This document shows positions 6,654-20,884 of a stretch of 34,199 nucleotides of DNA, one piece after another. Under the pieces are notes generated by a model. It saw only the letters and a program-made list of their open reading frames with translations. It ran no database searches and was not told where the DNA came from. Position 1 is the first letter of the stretch; the number at the start of each line of letters is the position of its first letter. A program made the translations under genes and the position numbers. The stretch is from Defluviicoccus sp. (GTDB lineage: Bacteria; Pseudomonadota; Alphaproteobacteria; MPNO01): contig JAJEHI010000076.1 in the NCBI GenBank assembly GCA_022823775.1, positions 1 through 34,199 of the forward strand, read 5' to 3'.

Positions 6654-7724
6654 ATGTCTTTCAACACGCAGGGACGGATATTCCGCTTCACCACCTGGGG
6701 TGAAAGCCACGGGCCGGCGATCGGCTGCATCGTGGACGGGACGCCGCCCGGGATCGCGCTCGCCGAGGCGGATATCCAGGTCTGGCTCGACAAGCGGCGG
6801 CCCGGGCAAAGCCGTTTCGTCACCCAGCGGCGGGAACCCGATGCGGTCGAAATCCTCTCGGGCGTGTTCGAAGGGCGGACCACGGGAACGCCGATCTCCC
6901 TCCTCATCCGCAACCGGGATGTACGGTCGAAGGACTATACGGACATCAAGGACAAGTTCCGCCCGGGACACGCCGATTTCACCTATCTGCGGAAGTACGG
7001 CCGGCGCGACTATCGGGGCGGCGGCCGTTCCTCGGCGCGTGAGACCGCCTGCCGTGTCGCCGCCGGCGCCATCGCGCGCAAGGTGCTGGGCCGCAGGGTG
7101 CGGATCCGGGGCGCCATGGTCCAGATGGGCGACCGTGCGATCGACCGGTCGAACTGGGACTGGAAGACCGTCGACAAGAACCCGTTCTGGTGCCCTGACG
7201 AGGAAGCCGCGGAAAGCTGGTCGGAGTATCTCGATTCGGTCCGCACCGCCGGCTCCTCGGTGGGCGCGGTGATCGAGGTAACGGCGAGCGGCGTCAGACC
7301 CGGGCTGGGGGCGCCGATCTACGGCAAGCTCGATGCCGACCTCGCGGCGGCGATGATGGGCATCAACGCGGTCAAGGGAGTCGAAATCGGCGCCGGGTTC
7401 GACGCGGCCGCGCTCAGCGGCGAGGAAAACGCCGACGAAATGCGGATGCGGCGCGGCAAGCCTGTATTCCTGTCCAACAACGCGGGCGGCATTCTGGGCG
7501 GTATCTCGACCGGGCAGGACATCGTGGTCCGTTTCGCCGTCAAACCGACGAGTTCCATACTCTCGCCCAGGCGAACGGTGACGGTCGACGGGAACAACAC
7601 GGAGATTTCCACACGCGGCCGGCACGACCCCTGCGTCGGCATCCGCGCGGTCCCGGTCGGCGAAGCGACGATGGCCTGCGTGCTGGCAGACCACCTGCTC
7701 CACCACCGCGCGCAGTGCGGCTGA
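6654..7724 (+). CDS. aroC: Chorismate synthase
   Basis: Converts 5-enolpyruvylshikimate 3-phosphate to chorismate, the last shared step to aromatic amino acids, folate and ubiquinone; it needs reduced FMN. The 356-residue length is normal. Family signatures are visible: [14 protein letters not shown] (residues 16-29, with the catalytic His), [28 protein letters not shown], and near the C-terminus the glycine-rich [13 protein letters not shown] and [16 protein letters not shown]. It lies 24 bases after fabI on the same strand. It converges on the tlyA gene, whose stop is about 20 bases downstream. Confidence 0.97.
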
Positions 7725-7743
7725 GGCGGGGCGGCCGCCGCCT

Positions 7744-8514
7744 CTACCCCCGTTCGCCGGCGATCAGGTATTCGCGGTTGCCGCCGGCGCCCTCGATGGG
7801 GCTTTCCACGATGCCGAGCACGCGCCAGCCGTCCTGCCGCGCAAGCCAGGCGGAAACCCGTTCGCACGCCGCGGCCCGCGCGGCCGCATTCCTGACGATT
7901 CCTCCTTTCCCGACCTCGTCCCGGCCGACCTCGAACTGGGGCTTGATCAGCGCGACGAGCCGGGCGCCCGGACCGGTCAACGAGAGCGGCGCCGGCAACA
8001 CGGTCTCGAGCCCGATGAAGCTCGCGTCGCAGGTGACGATATCGACGGGTTCCGAAACATGCGCCGGACCGATATAGCGCGCGTTCAACCGGTCCAGCAC
8101 GACCACGCGGGGGTCCTGGCTCAGCCGCCAGAGAAGCTGTCCGCGCCCGACATCCACCGCATAGACCCTGGCCGCGCCGTGCGCCAGCAGGACATCGGTG
8201 AAACCGCCGGTCGAAGCGCCGACGTCGAGCGCGGCCGCGCCGGTCGCGTCGATGTCGAAATGGCGCAGCGCATGATCGAGCTTGAAACCGCCCCGCGATG
8301 CCCAGAGACTCTCGGCGCCTCTCAGTTCGAGGTCCAGGTCGGATCGAACGGAATGGCCGGGTTTGTCGAGCCGCTTGTCGCCGGACCAAATCCGGCCCGC
8401 GCGGATGAGTGCCTGGGCCTGCGTCCGACTCTCGGCCAGGCCGCGCGCCTCGACGAGCGCGTCGAGCCGGCTCTTGTCAGGCGCGCCCGGCTTCCGCCGT
8501 GACGGTCTCGCCAC
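7744..8514 (-). CDS. tlyA: TlyA family rRNA 2'-O-methyltransferase / haemolysin A-like
   Basis: Predicted SAM-dependent RNA methyltransferase. TlyA proteins methylate cytidine 2'-OH in rRNA; the older name haemolysin reflects heterologous activity. The 256-residue protein has an N-terminal S4 RNA-binding domain (about 15-70, [19 protein letters not shown]), then an FtsJ-like Rossmann domain. The SAM motif is [16 protein letters not shown] (95-110), with [10 protein letters not shown] and the acidic CDASFIGLE further on. The start overlaps the 3' end of dxs by 38 bases, indicating translational coupling in a dxs-tlyA transcript. Confidence 0.9.
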
Positions 8515-10399
8515 GTCCCAGCGCCTCCAGAGCCGTGGCGACGATGTGCCGCGCGTTCAACCCCGCCGCCTCGTACTGGAGCGGCGGCTTGTCCTGGTCC
8601 AGGAACAGGTCGGGCAGCACCATCGGGCGTATCCTGAGCCCGCCGTCCAGCACCTGCCTGAGCGCCAGCATGTGCAGCACCTGAGATGCGAAGCCGCCGA
8701 TCGACCCTTCCTCGATGGTGATCAGAACCTCGTGCTCGCGCGCAAGGCGCAGGACCAGGTCTTCGTCGAGCGGTTTGGCGAAACGGGCGTCGGCGACGGT
8801 TGTGGAAATGCCCTTTGTCGCTAGCTCTTCGGCCGCCTTCAACGCCTCGTACAAGCGGGCGCCGTAGGAAAGGATCGCGATGGTCGTGCCCTCGCGCATG
8901 ACCCGGCCCTTGCCGATGGGCAGCACCTCGGCCTCTTCGGGCATGTCGACCCCGAATCCATCTCCGCGCGGATAGCGGAGACCCGACGGCCGGTCGTCGA
9001 TCGCAACCGCCGTCTTGACCATATGGACCAGCTCGGCCTCGTCCGCCGCGGCCATCAGCACCATCCCGGGCAGGCAGCCAAGATAGGCGATGTCGAACGC
9101 GCCGGCGTGGGTCTGGCCGTCGGCGCCGACGAGCCCGGCGCGATCCATCGCGAACCGCACCGGCAGGCTCTGGATCGCCACGTCATGGACGATCTGGTCG
9201 AAGGCGCGCTGGAGGAAGGTCGAATAGATCGCCGCGAAGGGCTTCATGCCGTCGGCGGCGAGTCCCGCGGCGAACGTCACGGCATGCTGTTCGGCGAGCC
9301 CAACGTCGAACGCGCGATGCGGAAACGCCTTCTCGAACGCGTCGACGCCGGTGCCGGAGGGCATCGCGGCGGTGATGGCGACGATCTTGTCGTCCTTCTC
9401 CGCCTCGGCGATCAGGCTGTTTGCGAACACCTTCGTGAAGGACGGGACGTTGGTCTTGGGCTTGTCCTGGACGCCGGTGACGACCTCGAACTTGGAAACG
9501 CCGTGATACCGGTCGGCCGATTCCTCCGCCGGGGCATAGCCCTTGCCCTTTACCGTGACCACGTGGACCAGGATCGGCCCCTCGGCCTGGTCGTCGCGGA
9601 CGTTGCGCAGCACCGGCAGCAAATGGTCGAGATTGTGGCCGTCCACGGGCCCGACATAGAAGAAGCCGAGCTCCTCGAACAGCGTCCCCCCGGTCACCAG
9701 ACCGCGGGCGTACTCCTCCGCCCGCTTCACGCCGCGCTCGACCGCGCGCGGGAACCTCTCGGCGATATGATGGGCCACGTCGCGCAGGCCGCGATAGCTC
9801 TTCGACGAGATCAGCCGCGACAGATAGCCGCTCATCGCGCCGACCGGCGGCGCTATCGACATGTCGTTGTCGTTGAGGATCACGATCAGCCGGCTGTCCA
9901 GCGAGCCGGCGTGATTGAGCCCCTCGTAGGACATCCCGCCGGTCAACGCGCCATCTCCGATCACGGCGACGACACGGTTGTTTCTGCCCTGGAGATCGCG
10001 GCCGACCGCGAAGCCGAGACCGGCCGACACGGATGTCGAGGCGTGCGCGGCGCCGAACGGGTCGTATACGCTCTCCGACCGCTTGGTAAAGCCGGACAGC
10101 CCGCCGCCCTGCCGGATCGTGCGAATGCGGTCGCGCCGACCGGTGAGGATCTTGTGCGGATAGCACTGGTGGCCGACATCCCAGATCAGGATGTCTTCCG
10201 GCGTATCGAACAAGTGATGGAGCGCGACCGTGAGCTCCACGACGCCAAGCCCGGCGCCGAGATGTCCGCCGGTGGTCGATACCGCATCGACCATCTCGGC
10301 CCGCAACTCGTCGGCCACCGCCCGCAATTCTCGGGCGGACATGTCCCGGAGGTCGCGCGGCCAGCGGACCTCGTCCAGATGGGGAGTGTCAACAGCCAT
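8477..10399 (-). CDS. dxs: 1-deoxy-D-xylulose-5-phosphate synthase
   Basis: Thiamine-diphosphate enzyme that joins pyruvate and glyceraldehyde 3-phosphate, the entry step of the MEP isoprenoid pathway. The 640-residue protein matches the family length. It shows [15 protein letters not shown] with the substrate-binding His, the thiamine diphosphate motif starting [18 protein letters not shown], the transketolase pyrimidine domain with [15 protein letters not shown], and [15 protein letters not shown]. The start at 10399 ([10 protein letters not shown]) gives the usual N-terminus. Its upstream neighbour ispA ends 17 bases before it, and tlyA overlaps its end, so ispA-dxs-tlyA form a unit linking precursor synthesis with chain elongation. 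Confidence 0.97.
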
Positions 10400-10416
10400 T
10401 GTCAGTCCCTCGCCGC

Positions 10417-11322
10417 TCAGTTCCTGCGCTGGAGCACGAACGTCCCGAACGCACGCAGAGGCTCCGCCTCGGGGCCGAAGCCGTCGAGACGGGCAATTGC
10501 CCGGTCGACCAGCTTGCGTGCTTCGCCCTTCGCTCCCTTGACGCCCAGGGCGGCCACGAACGTCGCCTTGCCCGCCGCCGCATCCTTTCCGACCTTCTTG
10601 CCGAGCGCCGCCTCGTCCCCGGTCACGTCGAGCAGGTCGTCGACGATCTGAAACGCCAGCCCGATGTCGTAGCCGTATGACCGGAACGTGTCCCGCACCG
10701 CTTCGGAGCACCCGCCCAGGATCGCGCCCGCTTCGCAGCTGAAGGCGATGAGCGCGCCCGTCTTCATGCGCTCCAGCAGGGCGATCAGGTCGAAATCGGT
10801 TGCCCCATGCTGCGCCGCGAGGTCGATCATCTGGCCGCCGACCATGCCACGCCCTCCCGACGCTTCGGAAAGCGCGCGCACGAGCTCGGTCCTCGTCGCG
10901 GCGGACGGGTGGGTGGCTTCGTCCGCGAGAACCTCGAAGGCGCCGGTCAGCAGGGCATCCCCGGCGAGAATCGCCGTCGCCTCGTCGAAGGCGACGTGAC
11001 AGGACGGCTTGCCGCGCCGCATGTCGTCGTCGTCCATCGCGGGCAGGTCGTCATGGAGCAGGGAATAGGCGTGGATCATCTCGACCGCGGCCGCGACCCG
11101 GAGCGCGCCCGAATCGTCGGCGCGGGCGAGCCCGGCACCGGTCCTGACCAGAAACGCCCGCAACCGCTTGCCGCCGCCCAGCGCGCCGTAGCGCATCGCC
11201 TCGTAGAGCCGCGCCGCCGGGCCCTCGGGCTCCGGCAGCTCCCGGCGCAGCACGTCTTCCACCGCCATGGCGGTGTCCGCCATCGCACCAGCAAGGTCGG
11301 TATCGATCAGCACCTCAGCCAA
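10417..11322 (-). CDS. ispA: Short-chain polyprenyl (farnesyl) diphosphate synthase
   Basis: Condenses isopentenyl diphosphate with allylic diphosphates to give farnesyl (or geranyl/geranylgeranyl) diphosphate. Both aspartate-rich motifs are present: the first within [17 protein letters not shown], the second in [24 protein letters not shown] near the N-terminus binds the homoallylic substrate and [11 protein letters not shown] is the usual lysine-containing segment. The longest start is a TTG at 11322 that overlaps the xseB stop; a GGAG lies 10 bases upstream of it. An in-frame ATG at 11283 gives 288 residues, also normal, so the start is uncertain. Chain-length specificity is inferred from family resemblance only. 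Confidence 0.92.
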
Positions 11323-11590
11323 GGTCGGCAGGCTCCAGACCGGCGGGTTCCGAGCCTTCGAAGGCGATCTTCTCGATTCGCGCCTTGGCTTCGCCCAGCT
11401 TCTTCTCGCAATGGGTCTTCAGGGCGATGCCGCGCTCGTAGGCGCCGATGGCATCGTCGAGCTTCGCCTCGCCGCTTTCGAGCGTGCGAACGATCGCCTC
11501 GAGCTGCTCCAGGGCGTCCTCGAACGAAAGACTGGATATGTCGTCGGTCAAGTTTCGTCGGTCCGCTGATTCGTCTGCGCTCCGTCGCAA
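11315..11590 (-). CDS. xseB: Exodeoxyribonuclease VII small subunit
   Basis: Small helical subunit of exonuclease VII, which degrades single-stranded DNA together with XseA (not in this window). The core LSFEDALEQLEAIVRTLESG followed by a second amphipathic helix ending GIALKTHCEKKLGEAKARI is diagnostic. The gene has only TTG start candidates: one at 11590 with AGGG upstream (91 residues) and one at 11551 (78 residues) that gives the more typical N-terminus. It overlaps the longest form of ispA by 8 bases. The xseB-ispA-dxs order is common in Proteobacteria. Confidence 0.9.
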   Translation of the reverse strand: MRRSADESADRRNLTDDISSLSFEDALEQLEAIVRTLESGEAKLDDAIGAYERGIALKTHCEKKLGEAKARIEKIAFEGSEPAGLEPADLG

Positions 11591-11661
11591 ACCCTAGCCC
11601 TACGCCGGTTGTCCGACAAGACGAGACTTCCTTTCCCCATATCTAACAAAAACTTATGGGA

Positions 11662-12588
11662 TCAGGCTGTCATCAGGACACCGACATGGGCGGCGACGCT
11701 CGCCGCCAGGGCATCGAGATCGTAGCCGCCTTCCAGCGTCGCCACGAGACGGCCTCCGCATACCTCGTCCGCGATCCCGCACAGCCGTTCCGTCACCCAG
11801 GAGTAGTCGTCCTCCACCAGGCGGAGCGTCGCCAGGGGGTCGCGTTCGTGGGCGTCGAACCCGGCCGAGACCAGGATCAGATCCGGGGCGAAGTCCTTCA
11901 GCGCCGGGAATACGCCGCGCTCCATTCCAGCGCGGAACTCGGCCGAGCCCGATCCCGGTCGCAGCGGCACGTTGACGACGTTGCCGCAGCCCGTCTCCTC
12001 GGCCCGGCCGGTGCCCGGGTAGAGCGGAAATTCATGGGTGGAGGCGAAGAAGAGCGAAGGGTCGGCCTCGAACATGGCCTGCGTTCCGTTGCCGTGATGC
12101 ACGTCGAAATCGACCACCGCGACCCGGTCCGCGCCGAGTTCCTCCCGCGCATGGAAGGCCCCGACGGCAACGTTGTTGAACAGGCAAAAGCCCATGCTCC
12201 GCTCTGCCTCGGCGTGGTGTCCGGGCGGGCGGACGGCGCAGAACGCATTGTCCGCATCGCCGGCCATCACGGCTTCCACCGCGGCCACCATCGCTCCCGC
12301 CGCCCGGCGCGAGGCCTCGCCGGAATCGGCCGACATCACGGTGTCCGGATCGACTCTCACCCTACCCTCCGCCGGCACCGCATCCAGCAGCGCCTCGACG
12401 AAGGAGGCGGAATGGGCGCGCGCCAGCTGGTCGGGCTCCGCCTCCGGCGCCTCGCGGCGATCGAGGGCGGCGAAGGTCTCGGCGGACAGCGCCTCCATCA
12501 CCGCGCGAATCCGGTCCGGGCGCTCGGGATGGCCCCGGCCCGTGTCGTGCCTGGCCGAGCTGTCATGGTGGAGCAGCAGTGTCGTCAT
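11662..12588 (-). CDS. Histone deacetylase-like amidohydrolase (AcuC/class II HDAC family)
   Basis: Zn-dependent deacetylase fold of 308 residues. The active-site residues of the family are present: the double histidine in RPPGHHAE, the zinc-binding DFDVHHGNGTQ, and the downstream aspartate in SAGFDAHERDPLATL. Bacterial members deacetylate acetylpolyamines, acetyl-lysine proteins or other small amides; the substrate here is unknown. It starts 33 bases after the stop of the metallo-beta-lactamase-fold gene on the same strand, with a purine-rich GGGG site before the ATG at 12588, so the two may be co-transcribed. Confidence 0.9.
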   Translation of the reverse strand: MTTLLLHHDSSARHDTGRGHPERPDRIRAVMEALSAETFAALDRREAPEAEPDQLARAHSASFVEALLDAVPAEGRVRVDPDTVMSADSGEASRRAAGAMVAAVEAVMAGDADNAFCAVRPPGHHAEAERSMGFCLFNNVAVGAFHAREELGADRVAVVDFDVHHGNGTQAMFEADPSLFFASTHEFPLYPGTGRAEETGCGNVVNVPLRPGSGSAEFRAGMERGVFPALKDFAPDLILVSAGFDAHERDPLATLRLVEDDYSWVTERLCGIADEVCGGRLVATLEGGYDLDALAASVAAHVGVLMTA

Positions 12589-12621
12589 CCCTTACCCCTT
12601 CCGTCCCAAGACCGGACGCGC

Positions 12622-13485
12622 CTACAGCGTATCGACGGGAACCTTGAGATAGGAGGTTCCGTTGCTCTCCGGCGGCGGCATGCGCCCTCCCCGGATATTG
12701 ACCTGGACCGCGGGAACGATCAGCCGCGGCAGGGAAAGCTCCGCATCGCGGCCGGAGCGCATGGCGACATAGCTCTTCCGACTCACACCGTCGCGGCAAT
12801 GGATGTTGCTTCGGCGCTGTTCGTCGACGGTCGTCTCCCAGGCGAATTCGCGTGATCCGCCGGCGCCGTAGTCGTGGCACATGAACAGGCGGGTATCCAC
12901 CGGCAGGGAGAGGATCCGGCGGAGCGAGTCGTACAGGGTCTCCGCGCAGCCGCCCGGGAAATCGGCGCGCGCGGTGCCCGAATCCGGCATGAACATCGTG
13001 TCCCCCACGAATGCCGCATCGCCGAACACGTAGCAGGCGCAAGCCGGGGTATGGCCGGGAGTAAACATGACCCTTCCGTCGATGCCTCCGATCGAAACCG
13101 TATCCCCGTCCTCGAACAGCCGGTCGAAATGCGAAGCGCCGCCGGCCAGCTCGTCCCCGATATTGAACAACGCGCCGAAAGTCCTCTGCACCTCCGAAAC
13201 GCCCGCGCCGATCCCGGTCTTGCCGCCGAGGCGCTTCTGAACATGGGGCGCGGCCGTGATGTGATCGGCGTGGACGTGGGTTTCCAGGATCCAGTCGACG
13301 ACAAGGCCCTCCCGCTGGACGGCCGCGATCAGCGTGTCGGCGGACCCGGTCGCGGTGCGGCCCGAAGCGGGATCGAAATCGAGCACCGGATCGATGACCG
13401 CCGCGCGGCCGGTTTCGGGATCCGAGACGACATAGGAGATCGAATTGGTGGCTGGATCGAAAAACCCGTCGACCTTCGGCGTCAT
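12622..13485 (-). CDS. Metallo-beta-lactamase-fold hydrolase, ETHE1/Blh-like (candidate persulfide dioxygenase)
   Basis: A 287-residue protein with the metal motif THVHADH (His70, His72, Asp74, His75), a second metal site histidine in FTPGHTPACACYVFG, then FVGDTMFMPDSGTARADFPGG and CHDYG. The arrangement SYVVSDPETGRAAVIDPVLDFDP at the N-terminus and the C-terminal extension resemble the ETHE1/Blh group. Characterised members of that group are mononuclear-iron persulfide dioxygenases oxidising glutathione persulfide to sulfite. The ATG at 13485 is chosen for its GGGGAGG ribosome site and family-like N-terminus. It lies just downstream of sat, across a 182-base gap containing a palindrome. A sulfite-producing role feeding AprBA is an inference; a glyoxalase II-like hydrolase is the alternative. 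Confidence 0.8.
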   Translation of the reverse strand: MTPKVDGFFDPATNSISYVVSDPETGRAAVIDPVLDFDPASGRTATGSADTLIAAVQREGLVVDWILETHVHADHITAAPHVQKRLGGKTGIGAGVSEVQRTFGALFNIGDELAGGASHFDRLFEDGDTVSIGGIDGRVMFTPGHTPACACYVFGDAAFVGDTMFMPDSGTARADFPGGCAETLYDSLRRILSLPVDTRLFMCHDYGAGGSREFAWETTVDEQRRSNIHCRDGVSRKSYVAMRSGRDAELSLPRLIVPAVQVNIRGGRMPPPESNGTSYLKVPVDTL

Positions 13486-13538
13486 GCGTCCTCCCCTTCC
13501 GATGCGAGCCGGCCGAAGGGAAAGTCTACAACATCCGT

Positions 13539-13559
13539 CGCCGGGCTTGAGCCCCGGCG
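13539..13559. repeat. Single palindromic repeat unit between sat and the MBL-fold gene
   Basis: Perfect 7-bp stem (13539-13545 and 13553-13559) with a loop reading CTTGAGC. The core CTTGAGCC and flanking C/G-rich arms resemble each arm of the larger element at 23641-23728, suggesting one repeat family scattered in intergenic DNA. The rest of the 13486-13667 gap shows nothing else convincing. Confidence 0.5.
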
Positions 13560-13667
13560 TCCCATTTCTTCGGTTCATTCGTATGCAGGCGGGCCGGTGC
13601 GCCGTCTTTCCGGCCGTGACGCGTCAGGGCGCCGTGCAGACGGACAAAAGACGCCGGAAACAGGACG

Positions 13668-14927
13668 CTAGTCTACGGCGCCGTCGTAATACGCCTGCAG
13701 GATGGCGACCACGCCGTCGCGGCTGTACTCCGGCGGAATCGTCTCACGGTTGGCGAACATCTCGCGCAGCCTCGTGCCGGAGATGCGGAGCTTTCCGCCG
13801 TCGCCTTTCGGACAGTCCCGCCCCGCGGTGTCGCCCGTCGCCACCGCGGCCACGCCGCGATAACGCTCCTCCTCGGGCAGCGCATCCTCCCCGCCGTCGG
13901 CGAAGCACACGTTTCCGGTCGCCATGCCCCCGCAGTCGAAGCAATAGAACGTGTCGTCGATCTTAAGAGGCCGGATGGCGAGGCTGTCGGCGCCGATCTC
14001 GTCGAAGATACGGTGGGCATCGTAGGGGCCGTAATAGGCGCCGACCCCGGCATGGTCGCGTCCCACCACCAGGTGCGAGCAGCCGAAATTCTGACGGAAA
14101 AGCGCATGGAGGAGCGCTTCGCGAGGTCCGGCATAGCGCATCTCGATGGGGTAACCGGCCTGAATCACCCTTCCTTCCGCGAAGTGGTTGGCGACCAGCC
14201 AGTCGATCGCGCGAACCCGAACGTGGGCCGGGATGTCGCCTTCCTTGAGCGCACCGAGCACCTGGTGGATGAGCACCCCGTCGCAAACCTCGATGGCGAC
14301 CTTGGCGAGAAACTCGTGGCTGCGGTGCATGGGGTTGCGGGTCTGGAAGGCAGCGACGGTCGACCAACCCTTGTCCGCGAACAGCGCACGGGTCTCGTCG
14401 GGACGGAAGTAAAGCCCCCTGTAGGTCTCCGGGAAGTGGCCCTCGGAGAGGACCGAGACCGGACCGGCCAGGTTGACCGCGCCCTGCGCCAGGACCTTGG
14501 CGACGCCGGGGTGGGCCTCGTCGGTCGTGCGGTAGACCTCGCGGCATTCGAGGTCCTTGTCGATGGCGTATTTCTCGGTCACCGCGAGGATGCCGAGGAT
14601 CTCTCCGTCCCCGCCCGTCAGCGCGACTTCGTCGCCGACCGCCACGGCGAAGTCCCCGCCGCAGGAAAGGGTGATGGGCAGCGGCCAGAACAGCCCGTTC
14701 TCCAGACGCATGTCGAGGCACGCGCCGCGCCAGTCGGCCTCGCCCATGAAGCCCTCGAGCGGGGAATACGCCCCCATCGCGAGCATGAAAAGGTCCGAAA
14801 CCTCGCGGCTCGACAAAGACAGTTTCTTCAGGCCCCGCGCCTTCTCGAGCGCATCCGCCCGCTCCTCCTCGGCGAGCAGCAGCGGATTGAGGCCGGCGTT
14901 GCCGTGCGGGGCAATCAGTGTCGACAT
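13668..14927 (-). CDS. sat: Sulfate adenylyltransferase (ATP sulfurylase), dissimilatory Sat type
   Basis: Interconverts ATP plus sulfate with APS plus pyrophosphate; in sulfur oxidizers it runs toward sulfate and ATP. The 419-residue single-chain protein has an N-terminal PUA-like domain (GAYSPLEGFMGEADW) and the catalytic motif QTRNPMHRSHE (195-205), plus VVGRDHAGVG. There is a Cys-rich segment FYCFDCGGMATGNVC resembling the zinc-site cysteines reported in the Archaeoglobus enzyme. No APS kinase domain is attached, unlike many assimilatory or fungal forms. It begins 27 bases after the aprA stop and closes the aprM-aprB-aprA-sat unit. Confidence 0.95.
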   Translation of the reverse strand: MSTLIAPHGNAGLNPLLLAEEERADALEKARGLKKLSLSSREVSDLFMLAMGAYSPLEGFMGEADWRGACLDMRLENGLFWPLPITLSCGGDFAVAVGDEVALTGGDGEILGILAVTEKYAIDKDLECREVYRTTDEAHPGVAKVLAQGAVNLAGPVSVLSEGHFPETYRGLYFRPDETRALFADKGWSTVAAFQTRNPMHRSHEFLAKVAIEVCDGVLIHQVLGALKEGDIPAHVRVRAIDWLVANHFAEGRVIQAGYPIEMRYAGPREALLHALFRQNFGCSHLVVGRDHAGVGAYYGPYDAHRIFDEIGADSLAIRPLKIDDTFYCFDCGGMATGNVCFADGGEDALPEEERYRGVAAVATGDTAGRDCPKGDGGKLRISGTRLREMFANRETIPPEYSRDGVVAILQAYYDGAVD

Positions 14928-14954
14928 GGGTCGTCGTTGCGGCGAGAAACGGGG

Positions 14955-16799
14955 CTAGTCGACGATGTGATAGACGGGGGCCTTCTCCATGGCCCACTCC
15001 TTCGATTCCCGGTCGTACCTGGACAGGGTGAAGCAGTGCCAGTCGGTGTCGTCCAGCCTGGGATGATCGGCCCGATAGTAGTATCCCGGCCACCGCGTTT
15101 CCGTCCTGAACATCGTGTGATGGGTCACCGCCTCCGACGCCAGGACCCGGTGTTGCAGCTCCCACGCCCGCTGGAGCTGGTGAAGGTCTTCCGCCCCGAG
15201 ACAGTCGAGGTCCTCCTTCAGCATGCCGAGCAATTCCAGCCCGCGGGTGAGCATGGGCTCGTTCGTCGTGTAGTGGGCGCCGATCCCGCCGACATACTCG
15301 TCCATTATCTTTTCGAGACGCTGAAGCCCGTGGATGGGCAGTATGTAGCTCGGCGACACCGTGCCCTCGACGATCTCGTTGCGGCCGACCCGGTAGTTCT
15401 CCAACGGCTGGAAGACCGTCTTCCTGAGGTCCTCGTACTCCTTCTCGCTGACCTGGGGCCGCTCGGTCTTAAGGTCATTGACGTAGTTGACCGCCGCCTT
15501 GCCGGCGATCCGCCCCTCGGTGAAGGAACCCGACGAGAACTTGTGGGCCGTGCCGCCGATCGTGTCGCCCGCGCCGAACAGGCCGTCGACCGTCATCATC
15601 CGGTTGTAGCCCCACTGGTACCCGTCCGGCGCGTAATCCTCCGGCCCGCTCGCCCAGGCGCCGGAGCAGGTGGCATGCGAGCCCATCACATAGGGCTCCG
15701 ACGTGGTCAGCTCCGGATTGGTGTGCTTGGGATCGATGTTCTGGGACGCCCAGACGACGGCCTGCCCGATCGTCATGCCGAGGAAATTCTCCCAGCCCAC
15801 CTGCTCCTTGTGCGGGTCCTGGAAGGCCTCGGTGGTGACCATGCGGATCGGCCCGCGGCCGGCCTTGACCTCCTCCAGAAGCGCGTGGTTGCGGAGACAG
15901 GTCGGCACCGGATGCCGGTCGACATAATCGCCCACCAGCTCCTTGGTGTGGTCGTACCACCTGGATTCGTATTCCTCGCCGTAGGCGTTCTGAGTGTAGG
16001 TCTTGAGGTGGAGGAAATACGCGCCGACCGGGCCGTAACCGTCCTTGAACCGGGTCAGGACGATGCGGTTTTCCATTTGGGTCATCTTCGCGCCGGCAAG
16101 GATGGGCAGCGCATAGGCGGAGGCGCTGCTCCAGGGCGCGTACCAGGTCCGGCCCATGCCCTCGCCGACCGCGCGCGGCTTGAAGATATGCGACGCGCCG
16201 CCGGCGGAGACGATCACCGCCTTGGCCCGGAAGACGTAGAACTCCCCCGTGCGCACGCTGAAGCCGACGGCGCCCGCCACGCGGTTGGGCTTCGTTGCGT
16301 CCGTCAACAGGTGGGTGACCATGATCCGGTTGTAGACCTCGGTGGCCGCCTTGCGCGCGGCCTCCGCGACGATCGGCTTGTAGCTCTCGCCGTGGATCAT
16401 GATCTGCCACTTGCCTTCGCGCAGATAGCGCCCGGTCTCCGGGTCCTTCATGATCGGAAGGCCCCATTCCTCGAACTTGTGCACCGTGGAATCGACATGC
16501 CGGGCGATGTCGTAGCCGAGATCCTCCCGCACCAGACCCATCAGGTCGTTGCGGCAGTAACGGACATGGTCCTCGGGCCGGTTCTCGTCCCACTGCATGC
16601 CCATGTAGCAGTTGATCGCGTAGAGACCCTGGGCCACGGCGCCGCTGCGCTCGATGTTGGCCTTCTCGACACAGACCACCTTCAGGTCGCGGCCCCAGTA
16701 TCCGGCTTCGTAGGTCGCTCCGCAGCCGGCCATACCGCCGCCGACGACCAGGATATCGGCGTCCACGAAAACCGTTTTCCGACGGGAGAACGAACGCAC
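14955..16799 (-). CDS. aprA: Adenylylsulfate (APS) reductase alpha subunit
   Basis: FAD-containing catalytic subunit of APS reductase, which interconverts APS with sulfite and AMP in the cytoplasm. At 614 residues it is full length. It begins with the FAD-binding strand ILVVGGGMAGCGATYEAGYW and shows family segments such as NIERSGAVAQGLYAINCYMG, MENRIVLTRFKDGYGPVGAYF and HTMFRTETRWPGYYYRADHP. The GTG start at 16799 shares one base with the aprB stop (TAGTG) and has GGGAG upstream, indicating tight translational coupling. Because the neighbouring membrane gene is aprM and no qmo or dsr genes are present, operation in the oxidative direction is inferred. Confidence 0.97.
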   Translation of the reverse strand: MRSFSRRKTVFVDADILVVGGGMAGCGATYEAGYWGRDLKVVCVEKANIERSGAVAQGLYAINCYMGMQWDENRPEDHVRYCRNDLMGLVREDLGYDIARHVDSTVHKFEEWGLPIMKDPETGRYLREGKWQIMIHGESYKPIVAEAARKAATEVYNRIMVTHLLTDATKPNRVAGAVGFSVRTGEFYVFRAKAVIVSAGGASHIFKPRAVGEGMGRTWYAPWSSASAYALPILAGAKMTQMENRIVLTRFKDGYGPVGAYFLHLKTYTQNAYGEEYESRWYDHTKELVGDYVDRHPVPTCLRNHALLEEVKAGRGPIRMVTTEAFQDPHKEQVGWENFLGMTIGQAVVWASQNIDPKHTNPELTTSEPYVMGSHATCSGAWASGPEDYAPDGYQWGYNRMMTVDGLFGAGDTIGGTAHKFSSGSFTEGRIAGKAAVNYVNDLKTERPQVSEKEYEDLRKTVFQPLENYRVGRNEIVEGTVSPSYILPIHGLQRLEKIMDEYVGGIGAHYTTNEPMLTRGLELLGMLKEDLDCLGAEDLHQLQRAWELQHRVLASEAVTHHTMFRTETRWPGYYYRADHPRLDDTDWHCFTLSRYDRESKEWAMEKAPVYHIVD

Positions 16800-17260
16800 T
16801 AGACGACTCCCTGCTTGAACTTGTCCGGCGTCAGCACGGGCAGCGCCTCGATGTGGAGCGCGTCCGGCTCGTGCGCGAGTTCCTGGGATTTCATCGCGTC
16901 CTCGGTGGGCGCGTCGTAATCGGCCGGCGCCTTGATCGATCCCCATGGCGTGGTGCGGATCGGGGAGACGAAATTCTTCTCGGTGCCGTCGCGGAACTTG
17001 ATCTTCCAGGAGATGGTGCCCTTCGTCTCTTCGCGCAGCGCCCGGACGCTGTGGCCGAGGGGAGCGAAGTCCGCGTAGCCGCGGGCGTCGATCGCGTTCT
17101 GCGGGCAGGCCTTCACGCAGGAATAGCATTCCCAGCACATATTGGGCTCGATGTTGTAGGCCCGCCGATAGGTGGTATCGATGTGCATGATGTCGGACGG
17201 GCAGATGTCGACGCAGTATCCGCAGCCGTCGCATCGGGTCATGTAGACGAATGTCGGCAT
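16799..17260 (-). CDS. aprB: Adenylylsulfate reductase beta subunit (iron-sulfur protein)
   Basis: Ferredoxin-like electron-transfer subunit of APS reductase. It has two [4Fe-4S] motifs: Cys10, 13, 16, 20 (CDGCGYCVDICP) and Cys42, 45, 48, 52 (CWECYSCVKACP). A C-terminal tail (about residues 70-153) contains ISWKIKFRDG and SPIRTTPWGSI and wraps around AprA in known structures. The 153-residue length matches the family. An AGAGGAG purine stretch lies upstream of the ATG, at longer than usual spacing. The gene sits between aprM and aprA. Confidence 0.97.
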   Translation of the reverse strand: MPTFVYMTRCDGCGYCVDICPSDIMHIDTTYRRAYNIEPNMCWECYSCVKACPQNAIDARGYADFAPLGHSVRALREETKGTISWKIKFRDGTEKNFVSPIRTTPWGSIKAPADYDAPTEDAMKSQELAHEPDALHIEALPVLTPDKFKQGVV

Positions 17261-17303
17261 GGGGTTCGCTTGACTCCTCTTTCGCAGACCGACGGCGCGC
17301 CGA

Positions 17304-18089
17304 TCAGTAGTGGCTGGGCCGTTCGCGGGCGCTGCCGAACGTCTCGGGCTTGTCAGCGGGAGCCGGCAGATTGCTCCTGGAGCCGGTCGCCTCGGATACC
17401 CGTTTCTCGAACGCCGCCGCGGGCTTGAAGAACATGTGCGAGAACTTGGACCACGGGACGGATCCGAACAGCACCGTCGTCGCGGCGACGTAGAGGCCCA
17501 GGAACACGATCATCCACGAGCTCTCCGCCGCCTGCAGCCCCGCCCAGATCAGCCCCAGCGTCGTGCTGGCGAGAAGCGAGAGGATGAAAAGGTCCGCGCG
17601 CACGAGCCGGAGCGGCGTATGGCCCTCGGCCGCCACATCCACCCGGATGAAGAACCAGAACCAGTAGCCGCCGGCGCAGACCAGCAGGGCGCCGACGACC
17701 CACAAGAGAGGCAGGATGGCGGGGGTCTGCGTGGCCGGCGTCGGGTACCAGAACACCATGACGAAGGTGGCAATCACATAGGCCAGGAAGCCGTACATCG
17801 TCAGCAGATGGGCGACCCGGCGGCGTCCGGGGCCGAATTCGGCGGACGTCAGCCCCTCCGACAACGCGGTCTGGATCGCGATCCCGGCGATCTGCCCGCC
17901 GCCGACCCGCCGCGCGCCCTGGTTCTTCGATTTCCGCCAGGCGGCGAAGAAATAGGTGGCGCTGCCCTTGTGCCAGATATCGAACAGGGTGCCGCCCACG
18001 ACGAAGACGATCATCACCACGACATAGGCCTGCATGACGGCGGGCGATACGGACGCCGAGAGCGCGGCGAAGGGATTGCTGGTCAACAC
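17304..18089 (-). CDS. aprM: AprM-type membrane anchor/electron acceptor for APS reductase
   Basis: A 261-residue integral membrane protein with about five or six hydrophobic helices (for example YVVVMIVFVVGGTLFDI near the N-terminus, FLAYVIATFVMVFWY, and ILPLLWVVGALLVCAGGYWF), encoded directly ahead of aprBA. In sulfur-oxidizing bacteria lacking QmoABC, aprM is the gene described next to aprBA and is thought to pass electrons from AprBA to the quinone pool. Start codon is a GTG at 18089 preceded by GGGGG; nearby alternatives exist. The soluble C-terminal tail (last about 45 residues) is polar. The family assignment leans on context plus topology. Confidence 0.85.
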   Translation of the reverse strand: MLTSNPFAALSASVSPAVMQAYVVVMIVFVVGGTLFDIWHKGSATYFFAAWRKSKNQGARRVGGGQIAGIAIQTALSEGLTSAEFGPGRRRVAHLLTMYGFLAYVIATFVMVFWYPTPATQTPAILPLLWVVGALLVCAGGYWFWFFIRVDVAAEGHTPLRLVRADLFILSLLASTTLGLIWAGLQAAESSWMIVFLGLYVAATTVLFGSVPWSKFSHMFFKPAAAFEKRVSEATGSRSNLPAPADKPETFGSARERPSHY

Positions 18090-18159: not shown

Positions 18160-18189
18160 ATACCATCTTTCGATCCGAGGAAATGTCAA
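18160..18189 (-). promoter_or_regulatory. Candidate sigma-70-type promoter for aprM-aprB-aprA-sat
   Basis: On the minus strand a perfect TTGACA (-35, 18189-18184) is followed after 18 bases by TGGTAT (-10, 18165-18160). The -35 box overlaps the stop codon of the metallophosphoesterase gene. The predicted leader of about 65 bases contains a GCGGCG/CGCCGC inverted repeat (18131-18136 with 18146-18151). Confidence 0.5.
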
Positions 18190-19007
18190 GCCGAGCCGGG
18201 CGCCGGGCGGCGGCGGAACGGAAAGGGGCCCGGATGCTCGACCAGGGGCAGGGTATGGGTAACCATGCCGATCCCGGGGCTCCACACATGAAGGAATCCG
18301 GCGGCCGGTTCGAGCACGAGATTGAGGTCGCTGTCGGGACGCAGGTCGAGCGGCATGTGAAACGCCGTCGACGGCGCCACGCAGGCGAGCGTACCGGCGA
18401 AACGGCGCTGGATGGCCCGGTGCAGATGCCCGCACAACACCCGCTCGACGTTCTCGTGCCTGCCGACGATCCCGGTGAACGCATCGGCCCCCTCGAAGTC
18501 CTGGCCGTCCATGAAGGGCACGCCCGTCTTGAATGGCGGGTGGTGCATCAGGATCACGGTCGGGCGGTCCGGCGCCTCGTCCAGGCGATCCTCCAGCCAC
18601 GCCAGGCGCTCGGCACACATCTCGCCGGTCTTGGCGCCTTCCTTGAGCGTGTCGAGCGCGAGGAAGCGCACCGGCAGGTCCTCGACGGCGTAGTGGAGGA
18701 ACGCGCCGTTCTTCGGCAGGTAGCCGGTATCGGCGAAGGCGGCGCGGAAGTTTGCGCGGTCGTCGCGATTGCCGGGGATCAGGTAGACGGGCACCGGAAG
18801 AGGGTCGAGCAGGCGACGAAGCTGGGCATAGGATTCGGCGTCAGGGGAGTCGACGAGATCGCCCGTCACGAACACCGCGTCGGCCGGAGGATCGAGAGCG
18901 GACAGGCGTTCGACGGCGCTGGCAAGGCCAACGGCGGTATCCGCCACGTCGTGGGCGAGATCGCCCTCGGGCCGGAGGTGTATGTCGGAAATATGGGCGA
19001 AGATCAT
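18186..19007 (-). CDS. Calcineurin-like metallophosphoesterase (CpdA/Icc-like)
   Basis: Dimetal phosphodiesterase of 273 residues. All the metal-ligand motifs of the family appear in order: ISDIHL (Asp8, His10), VTGDLVD, IPGNRDD, MHHPPF and CGHLHR. The PGNRDD form (Arg where many have His) is typical of the Icc/CpdA branch, whose best-known members hydrolyse cyclic AMP; other phosphodiester substrates are possible. It lies upstream of aprM on the same strand, 96 bases away. Its start at 19007 is divergent from the dienelactone hydrolase gene. Confidence 0.9.
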   Translation of the reverse strand: MIFAHISDIHLRPEGDLAHDVADTAVGLASAVERLSALDPPADAVFVTGDLVDSPDAESYAQLRRLLDPLPVPVYLIPGNRDDRANFRAAFADTGYLPKNGAFLHYAVEDLPVRFLALDTLKEGAKTGEMCAERLAWLEDRLDEAPDRPTVILMHHPPFKTGVPFMDGQDFEGADAFTGIVGRHENVERVLCGHLHRAIQRRFAGTLACVAPSTAFHMPLDLRPDSDLNLVLEPAAGFLHVWSPGIGMVTHTLPLVEHPGPFPFRRRPAPGSA

Positions 19008-19070: not shown

Positions 19071-19949
19071 ATGTGCGACGAAACGACTGCCCGCGACGAG
19101 GATGAATTCCTGCGCGGATCCGGAAACCTGACCCGGCGCGGATTCGGGACGCTGTCGGTCGGAACGGGCGTGGCCATGCTGTTGCCGCGGACCGCGGGCG
19201 CGGTCGATGTGACGGCCCGGAACGTCGAGATTTCGACGCCGGACGGCACGGCCGATTGCCACTTCGTGCACCCCGCGAGCGGTTCCCATCCGGGCGTACT
19301 GATCTGGCCGGATGCGCTCGGTCTCAGGCCCGCGTTCGAACGGATGGGGCGGCGGCTGGCCGAATCGGGATATTCGGTTCTGGTCGTCAACCCCTATTAC
19401 CGCAAGGTAAAGGCGCCGATCCTGCCGGAGGGCGCCACGTTCCGCGACGAGGCGACGCGCAACAAGGTCTTTCCCCTGATGCGTTCGCTGACCCCCGAGG
19501 TCACCGTGGCGGACGCCAAGGCCTTCGTCAGCTTCCTCGACGCCCAGAAATCGGTGGCGAGGGACCGCAAAATGGGGACGACGGGCTACTGCATGGGCGG
19601 TTCGATGACGATGCGGACCGCGGCGGCGTTCCCCGAGCGAATCGGTGCCGGCGCCTCGTTCCATGGCGGCCGGCTCGTGACCGACCGGCCCGACAGCCCC
19701 CATCTGCTGGTGCCCAGAATCCGCGCGCATTACCTGTTCGCGATCGCGGAGAACGACGACAAGAAGGAACCGAACGCCAAGACCGCGCTGCGGGAAGCGT
19801 TCGGCGCCGCGAAACTTCCGGCCGAGATCGAGGTCTACGCCGGGACCCTGCACGGCTGGTGCCCGCCGGATTCGGCCGTCTACAACGAAGCTCAGGCGGA
19901 GCGGGCGTGGAGCCGGATGCTGGCGCTGTTCAAGACCGCTCTCGCCTGA
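19071..19949 (+). CDS. Dienelactone hydrolase family protein with Tat-like signal
   Basis: Alpha/beta hydrolase of 292 residues. The N-terminus carries a twin-arginine-type signal (LTRRGFGTLS, Arg22-Arg23, then a hydrophobic stretch and an Ala-Gly-Ala cleavage region), suggesting export to the periplasm. The catalytic Cys174 sits in GTTGYCMGG, as in dienelactone hydrolase, with a candidate Asp in ENDDKKEP and His in TLHGWC. The ATG at 19071 has a GAGGAG ribosome site. Natural substrates of the exported homologues are mostly unknown. The gene is divergent from the metallophosphoesterase and precedes the DmsC/SoeC-like gene by about 90 bases. Confidence 0.88.
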   Translation: MCDETTARDEDEFLRGSGNLTRRGFGTLSVGTGVAMLLPRTAGAVDVTARNVEISTPDGTADCHFVHPASGSHPGVLIWPDALGLRPAFERMGRRLAESGYSVLVVNPYYRKVKAPILPEGATFRDEATRNKVFPLMRSLTPEVTVADAKAFVSFLDAQKSVARDRKMGTTGYCMGGSMTMRTAAAFPERIGAGASFHGGRLVTDRPDSPHLLVPRIRAHYLFAIAENDDKKEPNAKTALREAFGAAKLPAEIEVYAGTLHGWCPPDSAVYNEAQAERAWSRMLALFKTALA

Positions 19950-20038: not shown

Positions 20039-20884
20039 GTGCGACCCGACAGCTCGGCCATCCTGTCCACCGCCGCCTCGGGCACGGGTTGCGGCTTGCT
20101 GGTCCTGCTCGGCGTCTTTGCGAGCGGGGAGACGATCCCTTCCGACCGCTGGTTCGGGTTGGCGGCGATGGGCACCGCGCTGGGCGCGATGGGCATCGGA
20201 CTCGTATCCTCGGCCTACGACCCCGGACGCTCCGAACGCTTCCTGCACACGCTTTCCCGGTGGCGGTCGAGCTGGCATTCCCGCGCGGCGGTTCTGGCGA
20301 CCGGGGCCTGCGTCCCGGCGGGGCTATTCGGCGTCGGCTGGATCGGCTACGGGGAAGTCGACGGCATCTGGAGGGTGTGCGGCCTCGCCGCCGCCGTCCT
20401 GGCCGGGTTCACGGTCCACGCCACCGCCATGACTTACGCGACGCGGGAGCGGGTTTACGCGTGGAGCAACCGCTGGACGGTGCCGCTCCATCTCGCGCTC
20501 GCGCTCTATGCGGGCGGCCTCTGGCTGCACGCGCTGCTCGCCCTGTTCGGCCGCGCGAGCCCCGACAGCTCGCTGATCGTCGTAGTGGCCCTGTTCCTCT
20601 GCTTCTACCTGAAGCGCAAGTACTGGCGGTTCATCGACGCCGTCCGGGCGGTCTCGACGCCGGAAGCCGAGTGGGGGGAGTCGGGCCATCGGATCGCCCG
20701 CGAGCGCGCGGCAAGGCTCCGTCGCTACGCCTTCCTGCTCCTGTTCGCCCTGCCGCTGTTGCTCGCCATGGCGGGCATGGAAGCGGAGCCCGGGCCGGGA
20801 GCGCTCGCCGCTCTCGCCGCGGCGCTGTCGGGTTCCGCCGGGGTCGTTATCGAGCGCTGGCTGTTCTTCGCGGAAGCGGAGTGA
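20039..20884 (+). CDS. DmsC/SoeC-like membrane anchor subunit (orphan)
   Basis: A 281-residue polytopic membrane protein with roughly eight hydrophobic helices. Several segments match the DMSO reductase / sulfite dehydrogenase (SoeC) anchor family: SAYDPGRSERFLHTLSRWRSS early on, then MTYATRERVYAWSNRWTVPL, and the family-typical LKRKYWRFIDA. Such anchors bind quinone and hold a molybdopterin-containing catalytic subunit plus an iron-sulfur subunit at the membrane. Neither partner gene is next to it. The start is a GTG at 20039. Given the apr-sat genes nearby, a role in sulfite or other sulfur-compound electron transfer is an inference only. Confidence 0.7.
   Translation: MRPDSSAILSTAASGTGCGLLVLLGVFASGETIPSDRWFGLAAMGTALGAMGIGLVSSAYDPGRSERFLHTLSRWRSSWHSRAAVLATGACVPAGLFGVGWIGYGEVDGIWRVCGLAAAVLAGFTVHATAMTYATRERVYAWSNRWTVPLHLALALYAGGLWLHALLALFGRASPDSSLIVVVALFLCFYLKRKYWRFIDAVRAVSTPEAEWGESGHRIARERAARLRRYAFLLLFALPLLLAMAGMEAEPGPGALAALAAALSGSAGVVIERWLFFAEAE

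Follow-up and report, generated by a model that had tools for sequence, protein, structure and literature searches.

Apparent exchange of soeABC-like genes for an aprMBA-sat cassette beside a persulfide dioxygenase gene in Defluviicoccus

Sulfite can be oxidised directly by SoeABC, which yields electrons only, or via APS by AprBA and Sat, which yields electrons and ATP, and the choice between the two systems changes the energy gained per sulfur. A stretch of 34,199 nucleotides from Defluviicoccus sp. (hereafter the window), which is one entire contig of a 4.8-Mb genome in 198 contigs, raises the question of what supplies the sulfite to such an AprBA-Sat pair, and how supplier and oxidising enzymes came to lie side by side. 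On its minus strand, the genes aprM-aprB-aprA-sat are followed by a gene for a type II persulfide dioxygenase (PDO; Table 1), an arrangement recognised in a preliminary description of this DNA and borne out by matches to curated profiles. That description began the locus at position 11662; the apr, sat and PDO genes are real, but this position is the end of a gene of the histone-deacetylase (HDAC) family, which leads into xseB-ispA-dxs-tlyA, a block unrelated to sulfur genes. The reading that we favour, with a probability of roughly two thirds (about 0.68), is that the products of the locus oxidise sulfite in the cytoplasm via the reverse APS pathway, with PDO most likely supplying the sulfite, and that this pairing arose by exchange of a soeABC-like set for aprMBA-sat at the PDO locus.

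Table 1. Genes of the sulfite-oxidation locus and its surroundings, in positions of the window.
Feature	Position	Strand	Identification and remarks
aprM	17304..18089	-	membrane protein typical of lineage I Apr loci
aprB	16799..17260	-	APS reductase beta subunit; TIGR02060, PF12139
aprA	14955..16799	-	APS reductase alpha subunit; TIGR02061; GTG start overlapping aprB stop
sat	13668..14927	-	ATP sulfurylase; PF01747, PF14306, NF003166 above cut-off
type II persulfide dioxygenase (putative), SdoA-like, MBL-fold	12622..13485	-	4ysk identity and pocket residues
calcineurin-like phosphodiesterase, GpdQ fold (predicted)	18186..19007	-	PF00149; 96 nt upstream of aprM
dienelactone hydrolase (DLH) family protein	19071..19949	+	PF01738, 133 bits; between phosphodiesterase and soeC-like gene
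lone soeC-like (DmsC-family) membrane subunit	20039..20884	+	PF04976
HDAC-family protein	11662..12588	-	PF00850; neighbour outside the sulfur pathway
xseB-ispA-dxs-tlyA housekeeping block	7744..11590	-	PF02609, PF00348, PF13292, PF01728

The apr-sat genes themselves leave little ambiguity. AprB scores 195.6 bits against a cut-off of 135.7, AprA 965 against 642, and the full-length Sat 465 against 387 with NF003166, while also passing TIGR00339; the aprA start and the aprB stop share one base. AprM falls into no Pfam family, matches weakly the membrane part of TcuB/QmoC and has five hydrophobic stretches. Its gene lies directly upstream of aprBA, and the order aprM-aprB-aprA recurs in almost every one of the 80 named AprA loci. 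All eight cluster cysteines of AprB are kept. The KGX(D/E)(K/R) loop of this subunit, which has been tied to Qmo-linked enzymes (PMC2211403), is missing: the window has CDGCGYC where L037 has CDGCKGGEVSAC, and three lineage-II-like relatives (L037, L042 and L043) have a loop at that position. In a quick tree of 91 AprA sequences, in which the outgroup branches are long, the window falls (SH-aLRT 100) into a group of 86 that takes in SAR11, Thioglobus, SAR116 and many uncultured proteobacteria, and that stands apart from Archaeoglobus fulgidus, Desulfovibrio gigas and the same three relatives. Because of this tree position, the loop-less AprB and the gene order, the locus is predicted to be a standard lineage I sulfite-oxidation cassette; tree, missing loop and complete Sat thus all agree with the sulfur-oxidizer type proposed earlier for AprBA, Sat and AprM, with AprA placed among oxidisers rather than reducers.

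The rest of the genome fits this assignment. It is, like others compared here, a metagenome-assembled genome, so that absences may be assembly gaps. At E 0.001 it gave no match to a DsrA model that matched in 8 of 14 control genomes, where the proteins hit are presumably assimilatory sulfite and nitrite reductases, and a QmoC search returned AprM as its only matches, far below the cut-off. The preliminary description had noted the lack of dsr and qmo genes, which is hereby extended to the whole genome for dsrA and qmoC. AprBA and Sat are reversible in principle, and reductive APS or sulfate metabolism, be it sulfate reduction or assimilation, could be imagined on this ground; no result of our analysis points to it, and a genome with neither a match to DsrA or a related siroheme reductase nor QmoC, but with lineage I AprA and AprB next to AprM, makes it extremely improbable and rules out an Apr of the reducer type.

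For the other systems named as informative at the outset (sqr, sox, rdsr and soe), the picture is mixed. SoxB stayed below its cut-off, and a direct search with SoeA at E 1e-30 gave no SoeA-like match in any of the window family's six genomes (G000, the window's own, to G005), which discards the possibility that one of the molybdopterin enzymes of this genome is a SoeA; these enzymes comprise 12 PF00384 matches, of which eight and one partial sequence were scanned, some being formate dehydrogenase- or TorA/BisC-like and the rest unspecific. A lone soeC-like gene is kept in the window (see below). Among 37 Pyr_redox_2 matches, partly sorted by eye and possibly including an SQR, a single FCSD-type flavoprotein was recognised. 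It is the flavoprotein of a flavocytochrome c sulfide dehydrogenase (FccB; PF21706, PF09242), encoded on contig C48 in an fccAB-like locus, where it is preceded by a cytochrome c fragment and accompanied by a TsuA/YeeE-like transporter. Since DsrA is missing, SoxB and QmoC stay below cut-off, and the fccAB-like locus and transporter are present, the genome fits a route without rDsr, and a path from sulfide via sulfane sulfur or persulfide, sulfite and APS to sulfate is plausibly encoded and coherent.

The MBL-fold protein that would provide the persulfide step had been called ETHE1/Blh-like. It is 55.5% identical to the Pseudomonas putida enzyme 4ysk, and it has each of the eight residues given for the metal site and glutathione pocket of Blh/SdoA in PMC5584763 (D78, H149, D170, R181, Y214, R250, R253 and L262 in P. 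putida numbering). With the Blh profile NF040641, only positions 139-423 of 423 are matched, i.e., the dioxygenase part, at 386 bits for a cut-off of 625. A true Blh is ruled out by this score and by the missing N-terminal sulfurtransferase domain; likewise, a glyoxalase II or a thioesterase can be dismissed, as the HMM scores of those families lie far below that of PDO and the pocket is complete. The earlier label therefore holds as regards a persulfide dioxygenase, but the protein corresponds to only the dioxygenase part of Blh and is closer to 4ysk; judged by its sequence, it is a type II persulfide dioxygenase.

Under the favoured reading, AprBA would combine sulfite with AMP to give APS, with AprM relaying the electrons to the membrane, and Sat would convert APS and pyrophosphate into ATP and sulfate, which also sets the presumed direction of flux. 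The adjacent PDO would most likely produce the sulfite from glutathione persulfide, whose sulfane sulfur may come from the flavocytochrome c sulfide dehydrogenase and the TsuA/YeeE-like importer encoded elsewhere. Another source of sulfite has to be weighed: AprBA and Sat might mainly serve sulfite released from organosulfonates such as taurine and sulfoacetaldehyde, with PDO a detoxification enzyme that is nearby by chance. Two congeners, G001 and G003, indeed have Xsc over cut-off, and in G001 its gene shares a contig with apr at a distance of about 25 kb. In addition, the bin names suggest that, among the closest relatives by AprA, several are sponge metagenome bins, and oxidation of taurine-derived sulfite by AprAB and Sat has a precedent in a sponge symbiont (PMC10356861). 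The window's own genome, however, lacks Xsc over cut-off, yet has PDO and the fccAB-like locus, and PDO pairs throughout the order with a complex of the sulfite-oxidising type, as described below; we therefore regard organosulfonates as an unlikely main source.

How firmly are PDO and apr-sat linked? Adjacency of sat and PDO is restricted to three genomes of one genus (G000, G002 and G004); candidate terminator sites between the two genes are no more frequent than expected by chance. In the congener G003, apr-sat is carried by a different contig from PDO, whose neighbours are HDAC-xseB-ispA-dxs-tlyA and a lone soeC-like gene; the congener G001 (89% complete) has apr-sat and gave no match for PDO or HDAC; and in G018, which belongs to a different family and lacks AprA, PDO and HDAC are paired. 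These three genomes contradict a single conserved sat-PDO-HDAC operon. The compact persulfide-to-sulfate module without rDsr that was first proposed is hence plausible as a function, its enzymes being encoded, but not as a conserved module. One could go further and see in the adjacency an accident of rearrangement devoid of function, PDO belonging to the HDAC-xseB-ispA-dxs block and apr-sat having landed beside it. The HDAC gene does follow PDO in L159 and L176, where apr-sat is absent, and both the narrow distribution of the adjacency and G001 are compatible with this view. On the other hand, the gap between sat and PDO, 182 nt in the window, is only 67-75 nt in G002 and G004, so that the two genes could be co-transcribed and perhaps co-regulated. 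The other side of PDO carries soeABC-like genes across the order and a soeC-like leftover in the window's genus, which ties this side of PDO to sulfite oxidation. An accident thus seems even less likely than a mainly organosulfonate-derived supply.

This pairing carries the argument for an exchange. In relatives of the same order without AprA, PDO is divergent from a set of three genes encoding a molybdopterin oxidoreductase roughly 985 aa in length together with a 4Fe-4S and a DmsC-like membrane subunit, which is the architecture of SoeABC; the set is called soeABC-like here by architecture and context, not by comparison with a characterised SoeA. A soeA-like gene lies beside PDO in 17 loci from 16 genomes, namely 15 of the 16 order relatives examined outside the family, none of which has AprA over cut-off, and G027, from outside the order. 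A homologous set in Azospirillum brasilense adjoins xsc, which encodes another sulfite producer. Within the order, AprA and SoeA occur in complementary families; outside it, they can coexist, as in G027, which has both. The order-wide pairing supports a link between PDO and sulfite oxidation, for which apr-sat would be a lineage-specific substitute partner. A search of the literature, mainly of titles and abstracts, found no report of gene linkage between PDO and either soe or apr.

In the window, the apr cassette sits where soeAB would be expected. The soeC-like protein of the window is 41-42% identical to the soeC-like subunit of the order relatives and 67% identical to its counterpart in G003 (L159:6158-7054). 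In G003, PDO and the soeC-like gene are direct divergent neighbours, while in G000 and G004 they are separated by sat-aprA-aprB-aprM-phosphodiesterase and the DLH gene. The outer flanks are the same in all three genomes, luciferase-like and EamA genes being conserved farther out, and G002 has the arrangement of G000 and G004 spread over two contigs. The soeC-like reading frame is open in four genomes, and its dN/dS, obtained with a pairwise counting method, is 0.32-0.42 compared with 0.06-0.22 in its neighbours, a sign of faster evolution. On the favoured reading, the window's family would have exchanged the soeABC-like dehydrogenase that its relatives have beside PDO for another sulfite-oxidising enzyme system; the soeC-like gene would be the leftover of this event, with aprMBA-sat now between it and PDO and no soeA-like gene remaining. 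As for the presumed order of events, the position of apr away from PDO in G001 and G003 means that the cassette could have entered the gap either before or after the loss of soeAB, and it may have moved next to PDO when soeAB were already lost.

A second lineage supports an exchange of this kind. In L081 (Centralia MAG 132), two fragments on the opposite strand, one on each side, flank aprMBA-sat-phosphodiesterase: a 42-aa piece of soeA (71%, E 2e-12) and a 22-aa end of soeC (77%, E 9e-6), both short and from a single assembly. L088, which branches nearby in the AprA tree, has a complete soeABC-like set adjoining the aprMBA-sat-phosphodiesterase cassette.

The phosphodiesterase gene in these cassettes is itself a recurrent feature. 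Relatives of it were found in 17 of the 80 named apr loci and in none of 304 kb of other loci, chosen for convenience as controls; their position varies, and in most cases aprA, sat or aprM is found on the same strand no more than about 100 nt away. All 17 aligned proteins have GN[R/K]D at the position of the GNHD motif, and the predicted fold of the window protein (pLDDT 84.7) resembles the glycerophosphodiesterase GpdQ (3d03, TM-score 0.85). Our literature search, mainly of titles and abstracts, returned no report of such a gene in apr loci. It is tempting to generalise, in that [phosphodiesterase]-aprM-aprB-aprA-sat may repeatedly land in or beside soeABC loci and take over their job (window genus, L081, L088), that the sulfite-oxidising slot beside sulfite producers would be exchangeable, and that the GN[R/K]D-type GpdQ-like phosphodiesterase could be an overlooked member of the oxidative APS pathway, removing for instance an adenylyl by-product or APS. 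This broader proposal is speculative and, taken as a whole, rather doubtful.

With its complementary families, a leftover subunit and a replacement that occupies the same PDO locus, the order offers a natural case in which to ask why sulfite-oxidising systems are exchanged. Gene position here also links persulfide oxidation with the reverse APS pathway, a connection for which earlier work, in the parts available to us, relied on co-occurrence. The same route with PDO and AprAB/Sat has been reported for heterotrophs of Bohai Sea sediments (PMC12345210), and the pathway itself is therefore not new; the predicted enzymes are the same and rDsr is likewise dispensable there. In the accessible part of that report, which deals with genes and transcripts in MAGs, neither gene linkage nor an exchange of soeABC was found. 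What is new here is the apparent soeAB to aprMBA-sat exchange beside a persulfide dioxygenase.

Among characterised proteins, the window's putative PDO is alike to SdoA of P. putida (PDB 4ysk/4ysl) in overall identity and in its metal/GSH pocket, and it shares with the bifunctional sulfurtransferase/dioxygenase Blh (NF040641) the dioxygenase part, without the N-terminal sulfurtransferase domain. In comparison with the SoeABC sulfite:quinone oxidoreductase, the complex beside PDO in the relatives has the same architecture, whereas the window keeps the soeC-like gene alone. Finally, with lineage I Apr of sulfur-oxidising bacteria (Allochromatium, SUP05/Ruthia and Pelagibacter; PMC2211403), the window has in common AprM, the gene order, the missing AprB loop and the position in the tree, and it differs from them by the adjoining type II PDO, the lone soeC-like gene and the extra gene for a GpdQ-like phosphodiesterase.

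The genome of the window (G000) probably has its entry point for sulfide and thiosulfate at a locus on C48, whose FCSD flavoprotein bears a Tat-like leader (table). Two congeners, G001 and G003, encode a sulfoacetaldehyde acetyltransferase (Xsc) that passes the cut-off, and the G001 copy shares its contig with apr; no Xsc over the cut-off was found in G000. On an Azospirillum brasilense plasmid, the soeABC-like genes that adjoin xsc are annotated merely as molybdopterin oxidoreductase and the like.

Coordinates of the features discussed
Feature	Location	Positions
Cytochrome c fragment, FCSD flavoprotein, TsuA/YeeE-like transporter	G000:C48 (L250)	1-2708
Xsc	G001:C74	24470-26194
Xsc	G003:C210	3144-4868
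xsc, soeABC-like genes	L263 (plasmid p4)	4384-11322
aprMBA-sat-phosphodiesterase (plus strand), soeA and soeC fragments	L081 (Centralia MAG 132)	7605-14071
aprMBA-sat-phosphodiesterase, complete soeABC-like genes	L088	3135-13924
Phosphodiesterase	window	18186-19007
~116-aa protein	L122	11869-12219

Minus-strand soe fragments flank the L081 cassette, one on each side; in L088, on a nearby AprA-tree branch, the adjoining soe-like genes are separated from the cassette by a LysR-like gene, identified by eye. The phosphodiesterase (GpdQ fold, GN[R/K]D motif) recurs in lineage I (oxidiser-type) apr loci, in variable placement and mostly on the same strand; besides the window, these loci include L053, L055, L059, L063, L066, L077, L078, L081, L082, L085, L088, L090 and L099. 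Directly 3' of aprA, L122 and 19 further SAR11/SUP05-type loci encode a small protein matching no Pfam family.

In contrast to the window's genus, the sister genus (G005; L037, C429) has lineage-II-like AprBA, with the AprB loop present, and a partial SoxB.
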